This document shows positions 34,292-42,761 of a DNA stretch of 64,000 bases, piece by piece (position 1 is the stretch's first letter; each line of letters starts with the position of its first letter). Under the pieces are notes generated by a model. That model did not search any database, was not told the DNA's origin, and saw only the letters and a program-made list of their open reading frames with translations. The DNA comes from Flavobacterium psychrolimnae (GTDB lineage: Bacteria > Bacteroidota > Bacteroidia > Flavobacteriales > Flavobacteriaceae): assembly GCF_003312425.1 (NCBI RefSeq), contig NZ_QNUX01000001.1:1-64000 (forward strand), written 5' to 3'. Made by a program: the position numbers and the translations under genes.

Positions 34292-36142
34292 ATGAAACAA
34301 ATCTACTCGTTACTCTTTTTATTCCTTTTCACAGCAGGTTTTGCACAAGCGCCAGATGGCTATTATGCCAATGCCACAGGAACCGGCTACACGTTGAAAA
34401 CTCAATTGTACAATATTATCAAAGACCATACAGTTCTTAGCTATGGAGATTTATATGTTACCTATGAAACGTCAGATATTGATAATTTCTTTGAAAAAGA
34501 TGGTTCGGTTTTAGACATGTATTCTGAGAATCCTGCAGGAACAGATCCTTACATTTATAGTATTGCAAATACGCAAAGATGCGGAAGCAGCGGTTACGCA
34601 AAAGAAGGAGATTGTTACAACAGAGAACACATTATACCACAATCTGTGTTCGGTGAACAATCACCTATGGTTTCTGATGCACATTTCATCACACCTACAG
34701 ATGGAAAAGTAAATGGAATAAGGAATAATTACCCACATTCTGTAGTAGCAACTGCTACTCAAACTACTCTTAATGGGAGTAAACTTGGTGAAAGCACTAC
34801 AACTGGTTACACAGGTCCAGTTTTTGAACCAATTGATGAATTCAAAGGTGATATTGCCAGAATGTATTTCTATTTTGCCACTCGTTATGAAAATACTGTA
34901 GCCGGATATAATTACCCAATGTTTAATAATTCAACCAATAAAGTATTTACACCTGCATTTTTAAATCAATTACTGGCTTGGCACAATCAAGATCCGGTAA
35001 GTGCTAGGGAAATTACGCGTAATAACGCCATTTATGCACGTCAAAATAATAGAAATCCTTTTATTGATCATCCAGAATATGCAGTGTCGGTATGGACTAC
35101 AGAACCTGCAGATACTGAAGCGCCAACGGCAGCAACAAATTTGGCGGTAACCACTACTACTTCAAACTCGGCTACTTTAACATGGACGGCAGGGACAGAT
35201 AATATTGCCGTTACCGGTTATGATGTGTATGTAAACGGTACTTTCAAATCAACAGAAACTAGTCTAACAGCTACTGTATTAGGTCTTATACCGTCTACTA
35301 CTTATTCCTTTTATCTAATAACAAGAGATGCTGAAAGAAATTCTTCACTTGCCAGTATACCTGCGGAAGGAACTACAATAGCTGCACCTACTGGCGGAAC
35401 TACTGCATCAGGAATATTCTTCTCAGAATACGTTGAAGGTGGCGGTAATAATAAATTATTAGAAATTGCTAACTTTACTGGAGCTACAGTTGATCTAACA
35501 GTCTATTCTATAAAAAAACAATCAAATGGTGATGGAGCTTGGGGTTCAGGATTAGCCTTAACAGGATCCATAAATACTGGTTCAGCGTATGTAATTGCAT
35601 ACAATTTAGCAGCTACAACTTGTTACAATCCTGCAAGTGCTAATTTATCAACTGCATCTACTGAGGTACAGTATAATGGAAACGATCCTATTGGTTTATT
35701 CAAGAATGATGTTTTAATAGATATCATTGGAACATTTAACGGAGGATCGGCAAATTTTGCAGTTGACGAGACTTTGAGAAGAAAAGCAAGTATTTCAGCC
35801 CCAAATACAACTTTCAACAAAACTGCTGAATGGGATCTATATGCTAAAGACATTTGTAACGGTTTAGGAAGTCATTCATTGGCAACCCTTTCTAACGTTG
35901 ATTTTGATTCTAATGAATTCAATATCTATCCAAATCCATCAAACGGAAATATCAAAATAAATTTCGAAAATTCAAATGAAAAATATTCTGTTCAAGTGTT
36001 TTCAGTATTAGGACAAAAAGTTTTTGAAAAAGAATATAAAAACAGTTCTTCTGCTACTGTCAACAATCTTCAAAAAGGAGTTTACTTAGTTAAAATAACA
36101 ACCGACACAAAATCAGTTACTAAAAAATTAATTGTGAACTAA
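34292..36142 (+). CDS. Secreted endonuclease I with FN3, lamin-tail and type IX sorting domains (copy 1)
   Basis: A 616-aa secreted nuclease. Signal peptide at 1-18 (ending FAQA). The endonuclease I (His-Me finger) domain spans about 22-265 with CYNREHIIPQSVF (general-base H113), DAHFITPTDGKVNG and GDIARMYFYFATRYE. A fibronectin III domain follows at about 277-365, a lamin-tail-like domain at about 372-520 (FFSEYVEGGGNNKLLEI), and a C-terminal type IX secretion sorting tail at about 545-616 (FNIYPNPSNGNIKI, ending TKKLIVN). It degrades DNA or RNA outside the cell. It is a tandem paralog of the next gene. Confidence 0.9.
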   Translation: MKQIYSLLFLFLFTAGFAQAPDGYYANATGTGYTLKTQLYNIIKDHTVLSYGDLYVTYETSDIDNFFEKDGSVLDMYSENPAGTDPYIYSIANTQRCGSSGYAKEGDCYNREHIIPQSVFGEQSPMVSDAHFITPTDGKVNGIRNNYPHSVVATATQTTLNGSKLGESTTTGYTGPVFEPIDEFKGDIARMYFYFATRYENTVAGYNYPMFNNSTNKVFTPAFLNQLLAWHNQDPVSAREITRNNAIYARQNNRNPFIDHPEYAVSVWTTEPADTEAPTAATNLAVTTTTSNSATLTWTAGTDNIAVTGYDVYVNGTFKSTETSLTATVLGLIPSTTYSFYLITRDAERNSSLASIPAEGTTIAAPTGGTTASGIFFSEYVEGGGNNKLLEIANFTGATVDLTVYSIKKQSNGDGAWGSGLALTGSINTGSAYVIAYNLAATTCYNPASANLSTASTEVQYNGNDPIGLFKNDVLIDIIGTFNGGSANFAVDETLRRKASISAPNTTFNKTAEWDLYAKDICNGLGSHSLATLSNVDFDSNEFNIYPNPSNGNIKINFENSNEKYSVQVFSVLGQKVFEKEYKNSSSATVNNLQKGVYLVKITTDTKSVTKKLIVN

Positions 36143-36438: not shown

Positions 36439-38994
36439 ATGAAAAAAATCTACTCAGCCTTATTATTGCTATTCGTCACCGTTGGTATTGCCCAAATACC
36501 CAGTGGCTATTACACTACCGCCACAGGAACTGGCTACACCTTGAAAACACAATTATACAACATCATCAAAGGGCATACGGATAACGGATATGCTGGTTTA
36601 TATACGATATATCAAACATCCGATAGGGATTATTACTTTGAAAATGACGGTACAATTTTAGACATGTATTCTGAAAATCCTGCCGCAACAGATCCTTATA
36701 ATTACTCCGCAGGAACAACACAACGATGCGGGACTTATAGTGTAGAAGGCGATTGCTACAATAGAGAACACATTATTCCACAATCAGTATTCAGCGAACA
36801 ATCCCCAATGGTTTCGGACGCACATTTCATAACACCAACCGATGGAAAAGTAAACGGACAACGTTCTAATTATCCACACGGACCGGTAACTTCTGCAACT
36901 TGGACTTCCTTAAATGGAAGTAAACTTGGAACAAGCACAACTTCTGGTTATTCCGGACCTATTTTTGAACCTATAAATGAATTCAAAGGCGATATCGCAC
37001 GTATGTATTTTTATTTTGCGACTCGTTACGAAAATACTGTTTCCGGTTATTCTTATGCAATGTTTAATGGTACTAGCAATCAGGTTTTCACGACCGCTTT
37101 TTTAAATTTATTACTTACTTGGCACAATCAAGATCCGGTTAGTAACAGAGAAATTGCTCGTAACAATGCAATTTATAATTCTCAAAATAATAGAAATCCA
37201 TATATCGATCATCCCGAATATGTACAAGCAATTTGGAACCCAACTGCTGATGCACAAGCGCCTACTGCTCCAACGAATTTGTTAGCTAGCGGAACAACAT
37301 CAAACTCCGTTTCATTAAGTTGGACGGGTTCAACTGATAATATTGGAGTGACTGGATATAATGTTTATATGAACAGCGCTTTAAAAACAACTGTAACCGG
37401 AACAACTACTACTGTCACTGGGCTAACAGCTTCAACAGCCTATTCCTTTTATGTTGTCGCTAAAGATGCTGCTGGAAATTCTTCGGCTTCAAGTAATGTA
37501 GTAAATGCTACAACAGCTGCCGGAACATCAATTACGTATTGTGCTTCTCAAGGAAACAGCACTGCAGATGAAAAAATAGGAAAAGTCGTTTTTGGTTCCA
37601 TAAATAATACCACTACAGGAACTGCCGGTTATGAAAATTTCACTGCTATAACCACAAATGTAACTTCAGGAACGGCAAATACCATTACTATCACGCCGTC
37701 ATGGACAGGTACAGCTTATAGCGAAGGATATGCGGTTTGGATTGATTATAACAAAAACGGATTATTTACAGATGCAGGAGAATTGGCTTGGTCAAAAGCT
37801 ACTTCAACAACAACTCCGGCAACAGGAACAATCACGATACCAGCTTCGGCGACATTAGGAACTACGAGAATGAGAGTTTCAATGAAATACAATGCCATTC
37901 CAACTTCGTGCGAAGCTATTCCGTATGGTCAAGTAGAAGATTATACTGTAAATATAATTGCAGGGACTGCGGATACAACAGCTCCATCTGCACCTACAGC
38001 TTTGACAGCATCAGGAACAACTCAAACTACAACCACTTTATCTTGGACTGCTGCAACTGATAATGTTGGAGTAACCGGATACAACGTGTATAGAGGAACT
38101 ACATTAATAGGTACTGTTTCAACGACATCGTATAATGTTACGGGATTAACTGCTGCAACAGCTTATACTTTTTCAGTAAAAGCTAAGGATGCAGCCGGAA
38201 ATGTTTCTGCTTCAAGCAATGTTGTAAATGTTATAACAACTAGCAGTGGTTCCACTGCAACGGATTTATTGTTTTCTGAGTATATTGAAGGCTCTTCAAA
38301 CAATAAAGCGTTGGAAATTTCAAATGCAACTGGCGCAGCAATTAACTTATCGATTTATAGCATCAAAAAACAAACCAACGGTGCTGGTGCTTGGAGCACA
38401 GGACTATCTTTAACAGGAACGTTGAATAACGGAAGTAAATTTACTATTGTAAATAGTGCAATGGCGTCAAGTTGTTATCCTATAAGTTCTGCAAATCTTT
38501 CTACAGCGGCGACTGAAATGGCTTTCAATGGAAATGATGCCGTAGGTTTATTCAAAAATGGCGTCTTAATTGACATCATTGGAACTTTTAACGGCGGAAC
38601 AGCAAACTTTGCTGCGGATGAAACAATCCGAAGAAAAGCTACTGTTACTTCTCCTACAACTACTTTCAATAAAACAACCCAATGGGATTCATTTGCATCA
38701 GATACTTGTAACAATTTAGGAAGTCGAATTGTTGTAAAAGAGTCGAAAATTGAAATAGTTTTAGATATTAATGATATTGCTATCTATCCAAATCCATCCA
38801 ATGGAACTTTCTCTGTCAATAATTCGAATAAAATGTATTCTATCGAAATTTATTCTATCATTGGTCAGAAAATTTACAGCGAAGAAAACAGTACCAAATC
38901 AGAAATTACACTGCCAAACATTGCTAAAGGAACGTACTTAGTTCGTGTTAGCATCGATTCGGATTCAGTCATAAAAAAATTAATAATCAACTAA
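36439..38994 (+). CDS. Secreted endonuclease I with two FN3, GEVED, lamin-tail and type IX sorting domains (copy 2)
   Basis: An 851-aa paralog of the preceding nuclease. The signal peptide ends near VGIAQ (residue 19). The His-Me finger domain is nearly the same (CYNREHIIPQSVF, DAHFITPTDGKVNG). It then has a first FN3 (about 273-360), a GEVED-like adhesion domain (about 365-510, GYAVWIDYNKNGLFTDAGE and YGQVEDYTV), a second FN3 (about 515-605), a lamin-tail domain (about 612-755) and the type IX sorting tail (AIYPNPSNGTFSV...KKLIIN). The extra GEVED and FN3 units are the main difference from copy 1. Confidence 0.9.
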   Translation: MKKIYSALLLLFVTVGIAQIPSGYYTTATGTGYTLKTQLYNIIKGHTDNGYAGLYTIYQTSDRDYYFENDGTILDMYSENPAATDPYNYSAGTTQRCGTYSVEGDCYNREHIIPQSVFSEQSPMVSDAHFITPTDGKVNGQRSNYPHGPVTSATWTSLNGSKLGTSTTSGYSGPIFEPINEFKGDIARMYFYFATRYENTVSGYSYAMFNGTSNQVFTTAFLNLLLTWHNQDPVSNREIARNNAIYNSQNNRNPYIDHPEYVQAIWNPTADAQAPTAPTNLLASGTTSNSVSLSWTGSTDNIGVTGYNVYMNSALKTTVTGTTTTVTGLTASTAYSFYVVAKDAAGNSSASSNVVNATTAAGTSITYCASQGNSTADEKIGKVVFGSINNTTTGTAGYENFTAITTNVTSGTANTITITPSWTGTAYSEGYAVWIDYNKNGLFTDAGELAWSKATSTTTPATGTITIPASATLGTTRMRVSMKYNAIPTSCEAIPYGQVEDYTVNIIAGTADTTAPSAPTALTASGTTQTTTTLSWTAATDNVGVTGYNVYRGTTLIGTVSTTSYNVTGLTAATAYTFSVKAKDAAGNVSASSNVVNVITTSSGSTATDLLFSEYIEGSSNNKALEISNATGAAINLSIYSIKKQTNGAGAWSTGLSLTGTLNNGSKFTIVNSAMASSCYPISSANLSTAATEMAFNGNDAVGLFKNGVLIDIIGTFNGGTANFAADETIRRKATVTSPTTTFNKTTQWDSFASDTCNNLGSRIVVKESKIEIVLDINDIAIYPNPSNGTFSVNNSNKMYSIEIYSIIGQKIYSEENSTKSEITLPNIAKGTYLVRVSIDSDSVIKKLIIN

Positions 38995-39051: not shown

Positions 39052-39059
39052 TAAATTTG
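39052..39059 (+). promoter_or_regulatory. purL promoter -7 box with GCACCGC extension
   Basis: TAAATTTG followed by CACCGC, 28 bases ahead of the ATG at 39087. The downstream box matches that of the rRNA-type and tRNA-His promoters. The -33 box is not clear. Confidence 0.6.
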
Positions 39060-39086: not shown

Positions 39087-42000
39087 ATGATCCATTTCTT
39101 TGAAAACCAAAGCAAAACTGTTTTTGCCGTACACACGCAAAACGAAATTTCGGCTCAAGACATTTCAAAACTTAACTGGCTTTTTGCCGATTCAAATAAA
39201 ATAGAAAAATCCGTACTGACGGATTTTTTTGTTGGTCCTCGAGCCACTATGATAACGCCTTGGAGCACTAATGCTGTAGAAATCACCCAAAACATGGGGA
39301 TATCCGGCATCATTAGAATTGAAGAATTTCATAAAGCAACTGCTGATTTTTCTGATTTTGATCCAATGCTTTCGCAAAAATACGCCGAGTTAAATCAAGA
39401 TATTTTCACTATCAACGTACTACCGGAAGCAATTTTGGATATAGATGATATTGCTGCTTACAACCAAAAAGAAGGATTGTCTTTAAGTCCTGATGAAGTG
39501 GAATATTTAGATAATCTTGCGATTAAATTAGGGCGAAAACTAACGGATTCTGAGATTTTTGGTTTTTCACAAGCCAATTCAGAACACTGTCGTCATAAGA
39601 TTTTCAACGGAAAATTCATTATTGACGGAGAAGAAAAAGAATCTTCTTTATTCAAATTAATCAAAAAAACATCTCAGGAAAACCCTAACGATATTGTTTC
39701 GGCTTATAAAGATAACGTTGCTTTTGTAAAAGGGCCACGAGTACAACAATTTGCTCCAAAAAGTGCAGATAAGCCTGATTTTTATGAAGTAAAAGAATTT
39801 GATTCGGTTATTTCATTAAAAGCAGAAACACATAATTTCCCAACAACAGTAGAGCCTTTCAATGGTGCTGCAACTGGTTCTGGTGGAGAAATTCGGGACC
39901 GTTTAGCAGGTGGACAAGGTTCTTTGCCAATGGCTGGAACGGCAGTTTACATGACTTCATATTCTCGTTTAGAAGGTCCATTCGACTCCGCTCAGGGTAG
40001 CAGACCTTGGGAAAACGGCATGACCGAAAGAAAATGGTTGTATCAAACGCCAATGGATATTTTGATTAAAGCTTCCAACGGAGCTTCTGATTTTGGGAAT
40101 AAATTTGGGCAACCATTGATTACAGGTTCTATTCTGACTTTCGAACACGAAGAAGACGCTCGCAAACTAGGTTTCGACAAAGTGATTATGCAAGCGGGTG
40201 GAATTGGATACGGAAAATTAGACCAAGCGATTAAGAAAAAACCACAAACAGGTGATAAAATTGTCATCCTTGGTGGTGAAAATTATAGAATTGGAATGGG
40301 TGGAGCTGCAGTTTCTTCAGCAGATACCGGAGCTTTTAGTTCAGGAATTGAATTGAATGCGATTCAACGTTCGAACCCAGAAATGCAAAAACGTGCTGCC
40401 AATGCCATTCGTGGTTTGGTAGAAAGCGATATCAATCCAATTGTCTCGATTCACGATCACGGAGCTGGAGGACATTTAAACTGTCTTTCGGAATTAGTGG
40501 AAGATACTGGGGGATTAATTGATTTAGACAAATTGCCTGTGGGAGACCCTACCCTTTCGGCAAAAGAAATTATTGGTAACGAATCTCAAGAAAGAATGGG
40601 ATTGGTTATCGCCAAAGAAAACATCGATTTATTACAAAAAATAGCTGACCGTGAGCGTTCTCCAATGTACCAAGTGGGAGATGTAACCGGAGATCACCGT
40701 TTTACTTTCGAATCAAAATCAACAGGTGCTAAACCAATGGATTTTGCCTTGGAAGACTTTTTTGGAAGTTCTCCAAAAGTGGTCATGACAGACAAAACAA
40801 TCGAAAGAAATTATACTGATTTAAGTTACGACAAGAAAAACATTTCAACCTACTTAGAACAAGTACTTCAACTGGAAGCAGTTGCTTGTAAAGACTGGTT
40901 GACCAATAAAGTAGACCGTTGTGTGGGTGGTAAAGTAGCCAAACAACAATGTGCCGGTCCATTGCAATTGCCATTGAACAATTGTGGTGTAATGGCCTTG
41001 GATTATCAAGGAATAGAGGGAATTGCCACTGCGATTGGACACTCTCCTATTGCTTCATTAATTGATCCGGTGGCAGGAACAAGAACTGCTATTGCTGAGT
41101 CTTTATCAAACATTGTTTGGGCTCCAATAAAAGACGGATTAAAAGGAATTTCACTTTCGGCAAATTGGATGTGGGCGTGTAAAAACGAAGGAGAAGACGC
41201 TCGTTTATACGCTGCGGTGGAAGCTTGTTCCGATTTTGCAATCGAATTGGGAATCAATATTCCAACCGGAAAAGATTCACTTTCGATGAAACAGAAATAT
41301 CCAAATGAAGAAGTAATCGCACCGGGAACGGTAATTATTTCAGCAGGTGGAAATTGTACGGACATTAGAAAAGTAGTAGAGCCTGTTTTACAAAAAGACG
41401 GTGGTTCTATTTATTACATCAATTTGTCCCAAGATGATTTCAAATTAGGCGGTTCTTCGTTTGCGCAAACGTTGAATACTATTGGAAAAGAAGTACCAAC
41501 AATTAAAGACGCTGCGTTTTTCAAAAGAGCCTTTAATACCATTCAAGAATTAATTTTAGAAAACAATATCCTTGCAGGACATGACATTGGAAGTGGTGGT
41601 TTGATCACGACTTTATTAGAAATGTGTTTTGCAGATGTGAATTTGGGAGCAAAAATAGATTTCTCTGCTTTCGAGGAAAAAGATTTGATAAAAATCCTAT
41701 TCTCTGAAAACATTGGAATTGTTATTCAAGCGAAATCAGATACCGAAGTGGAATCTAAATTAAACGCAAATAATGTTTCTTTCTATAAAATAGGAACAGC
41801 TACAAATGAAGCGACTTTAGATTTTGGTCCTTGTACATTAGACATTGCTAAATACAGAGATGTTTGGTACAAAACATCGTTTTTATTAGACCAAAAACAA
41901 TCCAAGAACGGAACAGCTCAAGCGCGTTTTGACAATTATAAAAACCAAGCGTTACACTATACTTTTCCAACACATTTTACAGGAAAAAAACCAGTTATCG

Positions 42001-42761
42001 ACAATTCTAAGCCAAAACCAAAAGCAGCTATTATCCGTGAAAAAGGAAGTAACTCGGAGCGTGAAATGGCAAATGCAATGTACTTAGCCGGATTTGATGT
42101 AAAAGACGTTCACATGACCGATTTGATTTCAGGCCGTGAGACTTTGGAAGATATTCAGTTCATTGGAGCTGTTGGTGGATTCTCCAATTCAGATGTATTG
42201 GGTTCTGCCAAAGGTTGGGCCGGAGCCTTTTTATACAATGAAAAAGCAAAAACAGCTTTAGACAATTTCTTCAAAAGAGACGACACGTTGTCTGTTGGAA
42301 TTTGTAATGGTTGTCAATTGTTTATGGAATTGGAAGTGATTAATCCGGAGCATGAAGTACACGGAAAAATGTTGCACAACGAAAGTAACAAACACGAAAG
42401 TATTTTTACATCAGTAACGGTACAGGAAAACAATTCGGTAATGCTTTCTTCATTAGCAGGAAGTACACTTGGAGTTTGGGTTTCGCACGGAGAAGGAAAA
42501 TTCAACTTGCCAATGGGTGAAGAAAATTATAATATTGTTTCTAAATATGCCTATGAAGGCTATCCTGCTAATCCAAACGGTTCTGATTATAATACAGCGA
42601 TGTTGTGTGATAAAACGGGTCGCCACTTGGTGATGATGCCACACATTGAGCGTTCTACATTTCAATGGAACTGGGCATATTATCCAAAAGATAGAAACGA
42701 TGAAGTTTCGCCTTGGCATGAAGCTTTTGTCAATGCCAGAAAATGGATGGACAAAAAATAA
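39087..42761 (+). CDS. purL: Phosphoribosylformylglycinamidine synthase, single-chain
   Basis: A 1224-aa enzyme of purine synthesis (FGAR to FGAM, using glutamine and ATP). It has the large-type layout: N-terminal domain, two AIRS-like synthase halves (SEHCRHKIFNG, ETHNFPTTVEPF, GASDFGNKFGQP, HDHGAGG, PTGKDSLSMKQ) and a C-terminal glutamine amidotransferase (AIIREKGSNSE, and nucleophile Cys in GICNGCQ). The start at 39087 is used because the longer TTG frame begins inside the promoter box. Residues about 296-305 hold an odd segment, GPFDSAQGS, encoded by a common repeat sequence (see findings); it keeps the frame. Confidence 0.95.
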   Translation: MIHFFENQSKTVFAVHTQNEISAQDISKLNWLFADSNKIEKSVLTDFFVGPRATMITPWSTNAVEITQNMGISGIIRIEEFHKATADFSDFDPMLSQKYAELNQDIFTINVLPEAILDIDDIAAYNQKEGLSLSPDEVEYLDNLAIKLGRKLTDSEIFGFSQANSEHCRHKIFNGKFIIDGEEKESSLFKLIKKTSQENPNDIVSAYKDNVAFVKGPRVQQFAPKSADKPDFYEVKEFDSVISLKAETHNFPTTVEPFNGAATGSGGEIRDRLAGGQGSLPMAGTAVYMTSYSRLEGPFDSAQGSRPWENGMTERKWLYQTPMDILIKASNGASDFGNKFGQPLITGSILTFEHEEDARKLGFDKVIMQAGGIGYGKLDQAIKKKPQTGDKIVILGGENYRIGMGGAAVSSADTGAFSSGIELNAIQRSNPEMQKRAANAIRGLVESDINPIVSIHDHGAGGHLNCLSELVEDTGGLIDLDKLPVGDPTLSAKEIIGNESQERMGLVIAKENIDLLQKIADRERSPMYQVGDVTGDHRFTFESKSTGAKPMDFALEDFFGSSPKVVMTDKTIERNYTDLSYDKKNISTYLEQVLQLEAVACKDWLTNKVDRCVGGKVAKQQCAGPLQLPLNNCGVMALDYQGIEGIATAIGHSPIASLIDPVAGTRTAIAESLSNIVWAPIKDGLKGISLSANWMWACKNEGEDARLYAAVEACSDFAIELGINIPTGKDSLSMKQKYPNEEVIAPGTVIISAGGNCTDIRKVVEPVLQKDGGSIYYINLSQDDFKLGGSSFAQTLNTIGKEVPTIKDAAFFKRAFNTIQELILENNILAGHDIGSGGLITTLLEMCFADVNLGAKIDFSAFEEKDLIKILFSENIGIVIQAKSDTEVESKLNANNVSFYKIGTATNEATLDFGPCTLDIAKYRDVWYKTSFLLDQKQSKNGTAQARFDNYKNQALHYTFPTHFTGKKPVIDNSKPKPKAAIIREKGSNSEREMANAMYLAGFDVKDVHMTDLISGRETLEDIQFIGAVGGFSNSDVLGSAKGWAGAFLYNEKAKTALDNFFKRDDTLSVGICNGCQLFMELEVINPEHEVHGKMLHNESNKHESIFTSVTVQENNSVMLSSLAGSTLGVWVSHGEGKFNLPMGEENYNIVSKYAYEGYPANPNGSDYNTAMLCDKTGRHLVMMPHIERSTFQWNWAYYPKDRNDEVSPWHEAFVNARKWMDKK
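39974..40002 (+). repeat. Repeat fragment inserted in frame within purL
   Basis: The bases TTCGACTCCGCTCAGG (39980-39995) match a motif widely scattered in Bacteroidota intergenic DNA and often mis-annotated as FDSAQ or LSEVEG peptides. Here it encodes FDSAQG inside PurL, between MTSYSRLE and RPWENGMTERKWLYQ. Confidence 0.55.

Follow-up and report, generated by a model that had tools for sequence, protein, structure and literature searches.

Part of the phosphoribosylformylglycinamidine synthase (PurL) of Flavobacterium psychrolimnae is very probably the translated copy of a small REP-like repeat, lying in a stretch of the enzyme, between the residues SRL and RPWE, that has probably captured this repeat many times, the survivors presumably having been filtered by selection. 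The DNA analysed (the window, 64,000 nucleotides) comes from a genome of 3.65 Mb in 23 contigs, 99.9% complete, with a single PurL match. The gene, purL (39087..42761, + strand, 1224 aa), is an open frame with the Pfam domains FGAR-AT_N, FGAR-AT_linker, FGAR-AT PurM_N-like, AIRS_C and GATase_5, and with matches to solved PurL structures (best E 1.5e-213); its start was placed by reading at the ATG at 39087, the open frame reaching back to a TTG at 39057. Upstream of purL lie two tandem homologous ORFs of 616 and 851 aa (34292-36142 and 36439-38994), their products presumably resembling secreted nucleases and ending in similar C-terminal tails.

A sequence-only reading of the window had claimed that a repeat fragment sits within PurL and keeps the frame, and this proved correct: TTCGACTCCGCTCAGG at 39981-39996 (+) is in the purL frame and encodes FDSAQG, residues 299-304 as numbered from the ATG at 39087. 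It is the sole match in the window at up to three mismatches, where 0.04 would be expected by chance, which rules out a fortuitous likeness to the repeat; an assembly artefact is ruled out by the occurrence of like inserts in many assemblies. Aligned around the insert, the comparison that reading had pointed to, PurLs of relatives vary in length: the stretch EGPFDSAQGS (39972..40001, +) between SRL and RPWE is reduced to AEN in the tree row closest to the F. psychrolimnae PurL, a member of the same genus (L017), which is 21 nt, or seven residues, shorter. Within the lengthened stretch, the exact repeat core TTCGACTNCGCTCAG (N = C; 39981..39995, +) reads FDSAQ and is embedded in a REP-like hairpin unit of CCA, core and GG (39978..39997, +), delimited from the consensus and covarying pairs of 155 copies; the site at which those copies carry a TGACA tag (39998..40002, +) here reads TAGCA, whether changed or native. 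The stretch faces a gap in two solved PurL sequences in the alignments examined, and probably forms a tolerant surface loop; an AlphaFold model of residues 1-710 (mean pLDDT 44.4) was too low in confidence for use.

The derivation of the FDSAQG residues from a dispersed repeat, also proposed by the sequence-only reading, is borne out by the core TTCGACTNCGCTCAG, found exactly in 221 of the 398 Flavobacterium genomes searched, at 0 to 160 copies per genome, while a reversed control gave two matches in total. The repeat is thus frequent, as had been asserted, in the genus, but not in F. psychrolimnae itself, where only six exact cores occur: one in PurL, one in an HsdM-like gene, one that no open frame longer than 60 aa surrounds, and three that belong to an array on contig 21. 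This intergenic array (C21:140292-141358; L003, L362) comprises two subfamilies, CTTCGACTCCGCTCAG in three copies and CTTCGTCTACGCTCAG in seven, together with TCGAGCGCAGTCGAG palindromes. Drawn from 155 distinct copies at 121 loci (the first places listed per genome and their neighbours, hence not a random draw), the consensus is R-N-N-C-TTCGACTNCGCTCAG-N'-N'-TGACA, some 25 nt in length. Its outer pairs covary: pair -2:16 is kept in 140 of the 155 copies (500 shuffles: mean 61, maximum 77) and pair -3:17 in 121 (mean 59.5, maximum 74), and pairs outside -3:17 are no better than shuffles in the same copies. The conserved tag, TGACA at positions 18-22 (TGTCA on the opposite strand), is present on one side only. 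Neighbouring copies on opposite strands lie 31-44 nt apart, start to start (for example in G052:C44, G338:C11, G244:C45, G402:C18 and G455:C96). In its anatomy the repeat is accordingly REP-like: a small hairpin, imperfectly paired, that carries its tag on one side.

Occurrence of the insert among PurLs is patchy. A 110-residue PurL segment was matched in 145 of 150 genomes, and the majority of the rows fetched are short, of the form SRL-(3 residues)-RPWE, the others being longer with FDSAQ-like residues. A length pattern matched 57 of the 398 genus genomes, comprising 43 of FDSAQ type (a lower bound, as the pattern requires certain codons), one with another palindrome, six with longer unrecognised stretches, six longer by one or two residues, and one false match (G170). 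The same register as in F. psychrolimnae is found in Flavobacterium glaciei (ESLDSAQSS), whose PurL shows no difference, across the stretch compared, from the PurL of another genome of the genus (G029; L006, L095), and in L093 (APFDSAQGS), with drifted versions in others. The insertion had been called recent; taken to mean confined to F. psychrolimnae, that description is unsupported, F. glaciei and L093 sharing the insert and the nearest row lacking it. The insert is real and repeat-derived, and neither unique nor very recent. Outside Flavobacterium, the named loci bearing FDSAQ-type inserts are those of Muricauda sp. M10 (L115), Aequorivita xiaoshiensis (L118) and a metagenome-assembled genome titled Chlorobiota (L155), which the PurL tree places among Flavobacteriaceae. 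In an order-wide draw, the pattern was present in 12 of 395 genomes, namely 8 of the 37 drawn from the genus plus four from outside it; none of these four is of FDSAQ type, one (G764) carrying a second palindrome, two (G101, G670) longer unrecognised stretches, and one (G508) matching apparently by chance.

All 54 inserts assembled from PurLs occupy one place, in one orientation and one frame. They measure 5-8 residues and fall into nine registers, some of these having arisen by subsequent shortening; the core is exact in 29 and the TGACA tag in 30. Among the 43 with no more than one mismatch, pairs -2:16 and -3:17 are kept in 40 and 38, respectively, and because these outer hairpin pairs hold, a Ser preceding the core tends to be accompanied by an Asp following it, and a Pro by a Gly. 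Stem variants include TCC..GAT, CCC..GGT and CCG..GGC, and drifted peptides include LDSAQS, SADSTQ and ASDATP. The identity extends to codons: where residues are identical, insert codons agree at 92-97% at all distances and 60 flanking codons at 72%, falling to 53%, although the 45 of 54 rows compared were those with up to two mismatches, a selection that inflates insert identity. Synonymous sites of the insert are exact even where two PurLs are separated by more than 0.6 changes per site. Convergent evolution of the protein, by which FDSAQ-like residues would have been selected for function and their likeness to the repeat would be accidental, could draw on the identical residues seen in some distant Bacteroidota, yet it is scarcely credible in the face of a DNA-level match that includes third positions and reaches stem and tag, of peptides that drift, and of an unrelated palindrome found at the same place.

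This second palindrome, CCCGATANNNATCGGG, lies in frame at that place in three PurLs, those of L069 (G379), L107 (Flavobacterium luteum) and L183 (G764, of another family). It is dispersed in both genomes searched, with 54 matches per strand in G379 and 10-11 in G764, the PurL copy included. The CCCGATAGCTATCGGG palindrome, which we take to be a common repeat of flavobacteria and for which a published name was not found, thus resembles the FDSAQ repeat in being dispersed and in its place in PurL, but is a perfect palindrome of unrelated sequence.

The history of these inserts was examined on a PurL tree built without the loop (LG+G4, quick search) from 227 rows, less 17 duplicates; 10 longer rows matching neither repeat were treated as a separate class. 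Of the resulting 210 rows, 143 lack any insert. The FDSAQ label requires 32 changes, at least 26 of them forced by well-supported branches, and a label for any insert requires 41, with 31 on such branches, counts into which purL transfer and local tree error may enter, the tree having been built from PurL itself. In a 117-row subset (from which two uninserted rows that failed the loop pattern, L200 and L256, were left out), 19 independent pairs differ in the insert on well-supported branches. Genomes with the insert hold more copies of the repeat (median 11 in 43 genomes versus 0 in 74, p 3.6e-8), but the link is not significant with independent pairs of that subset (median p 0.22, 0.29 and 0.38). 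An ancestral PurL motif inherited vertically across Bacteroidota was rejected on the grounds of the uninserted majority, the forced changes and the codon identity of the inserts. The same residues in distant Bacteroidota, named in the sequence-only reading as the observation that would tell against it, do occur literally in a few loci (those of Muricauda sp. M10 and A. xiaoshiensis); since the tree is patchy and the match to the repeat extends to DNA, repeated insertion is favoured over such a motif.

An alternative would posit a small number of old insertions, perhaps just one, and a very large number of later losses. Inserts and empty stretches indeed alternate within a large clade around L012-L221; the site reads TGACAGA in nine uninserted PurLs, five of which belong to that clade, as if a scar of the tag had remained, and some losses within the genus are likely. 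Gains and losses are moreover not fully separable, as the number of gains depends on the cost assigned to loss: when both cost the same, the tree takes 27 gains and 5 losses, and as loss is cheapened to a half, a third and a quarter of the cost of a gain, the respective figures become 15 and 23, 7 and 42, and 2 and 60. A history with just one gain, however, needs 65 losses, the registers and stem variants differ among inserts, and synonymous sites have stayed exact between distant PurLs. We therefore regard this history as improbable, and gains as probably the majority of the changes.

Capture of the repeat extends to other genes. Although the repeat is mostly intergenic, as the sequence-only reading had supposed, 25 of the 155 copies lie in open frames of at least 150 residues, and 12 of these, from 11 loci, were assessed as lying inside a gene; the other 13 were judged terminal or spurious, 10 (nine loci) being N-terminal, two in the frame of a repeat array (L268) and one C-terminal (L287). 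Pfam fits were obtained for six proteins with an internal copy, namely MvaD, a radical SAM protein of the HemN/HemW type, a cyclase-family protein, RmlD, HsdM and a VapE-like protein, while two further cyclases, a second RmlD, a glycosyltransferase-like protein and an unnamed protein were identified by reading. The frames FDSAQ, STPLS, LSGVE and ERSRS are all seen among the in-frame copies, and RmlD carries the repeat in two frames. The HsdM-like gene bears the repeat at apparently the same C-terminal place in the source genome (L433, C12:167008-167023), where it reads LSAVEG, and in G372 (L049), where it reads LSGVEG. The cyclase-family (PF04199) protein contains a second capture stretch: a search for this protein gave a match in 111 of 121 genomes, and the core, at up to two mismatches, was present in one stretch of 14 of the 30 best loci (L395-L424), a proportion that overstates the rate in the genus because those loci were drawn with a repeat-bearing query. 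Its 17 cores, with two copies in three loci, share one frame (STSLS/STPLS).

Four frames of the consensus are free of stops when read by hand, and the uniform orientation and frame of the PurL inserts exceeds what is expected from random insertion with a no-stop filter alone; either the place accepts no frame other than FDSAQ, or the repeat is inserted in a directed way. Under the latter alternative, a single-strand DNA-processing enzyme would put the repeat at TGTC-like targets in fixed orientation, the N/D-R-P-W codons (often ..ACAGA) supplying the target in PurL. This would accommodate the 54 concordant inserts, the 17 cyclase-stretch cores in one frame (their ancestry partly shared), the tag exact in 30 of 54 inserts, and some uninserted relatives that read TGACAGA. 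The TGACAGA of uninserted PurLs such as L117, L120, L122, L128 and L131 may represent either scars of lost repeats or pre-existing targets. For the insert of L072, however, the nearest empty site (L208) reads GAACGT and the tag arrived with the insert; junctions vary, and the two frames in RmlD also speak against a fixed mode. Nor was an enzyme linked to the repeat: PF01797 genes occur in 14 of 16 genomes searched (13 above cut-off), but none of 30 such loci, several shortened by contig ends, has an exact core within 1.5 kb; at two of them there is a related CTTCGTCTTCGCTCAG, which differs from the core by one change. A REPtron link is not supported. We consider directed integration unlikely, though less so than an old insertion subjected to massive loss. 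A bolder form of the idea, to which we would assign a similarly small chance, treats the PurL stretch as a site at which a Bacteroidota repeat, directed by its tag and processed as a single strand, is actively integrated in one orientation; an unrecognised enzyme would drop REP units beside TGTC-like codons, and cells might even use the peptide, for example in partner binding; if true, the same peptide would be written convergently into one enzyme of many species.

Repeated capture with filtering of survivors remains our preferred explanation. New copies of the repeat would arise by some process, through whatever mobilising agent may act, and those landing in genes would mostly be lost. Survivors would be those with a net length that is a multiple of three, with no stop, in a protein that tolerates extra residues at that point, and the SRL-RPWE stretch would be such a tolerant place, where the repeat could be captured many times. 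Capture may often involve the whole unit and its tag with replacement of a few native bases, and the peptide, probably neutral, would then drift, shorten or disappear. Comparisons of junctions indeed suggest that a few native bases are replaced and that, in L185, a one-base loss in the tag restores the frame, a picture closer to imprecise copying or repair than to strict transposition. The PurL loop may be viewed as a natural record of selfish DNA turning into protein: a dense series of exact, shortened, drifted and empty states of one repeat, spanning the genus and slightly beyond, which makes testable the old question of whether it takes directed insertion, or only a selection filter, to turn small repeats into protein. 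It also counsels caution, as FDSAQ, STPLS and LSGVE segments of such proteins, which can originate from the repeat, ought not to be taken for conserved motifs.

No paper on the FDSAQ repeat strings, the CCCGATA palindrome or the FDSAQ peptide was found in the open-access literature, and within the literature searched the repeat family, its tag and its recurrence in PurL appear undescribed. RepRanger attributes numerous predicted REPs to two Flavobacterium species, the portions of that report seen making no mention of intragenic copies (PMC12306157). The GTAG and CGTC superfamilies of REPs, according to the parts of their description consulted, include intragenic members, RPE-4 and RPE-6 being counted as CGTC REPs, and two Xanthomonas recB genes have REPs at about the same site (PMC3733652). 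The FDSAQ repeat is like these in being a short imperfect hairpin (within the 20-40 nt of REPs generally) whose covarying outer pairs surround a conserved core, with a conserved one-sided tag, many mainly intergenic copies (up to 160 exact cores per genome), opposite-strand pairs of the BIME/REPIN kind and some copies in frame (PMC3733652, as far as seen). It differs in that the tag at the foot of its hairpin is TGACA rather than GTAG or CGTC, that no tyrosine transposase gene flanked by the repeat was found at the 30 PF01797 loci, and that at least 26 changes are forced at one place in PurL. TnpAREP/RAYT subclasses 2.4 and 2.6 are known in Bacteroidetes, with REP inserts that keep the frame of coding genes (PMC6006769, in the part available); the FDSAQ repeat shares the phylum and the in-frame insertion, but was associated with none of the 30 PF01797 loci, two of which have a related core. 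Rickettsia palindromic elements offer a further parallel, being in-frame palindromic repeats in unrelated protein genes, as the FDSAQ repeat is in PurL and in MvaD-, HemW-, RmlD-, HsdM-, cyclase- and VapE-type genes; the likeness is one of description rather than of RPE sequence, and the FDSAQ repeat is set apart by its phylum, its inserts of 5-8 residues in PurL and its recurrence at one site across genera. Intragenic REPs and Rickettsia elements are thus already known, and what is new is that a single site in a housekeeping enzyme should capture, time and again, a repeat that bears its own tag in place of GTAG or CGTC.
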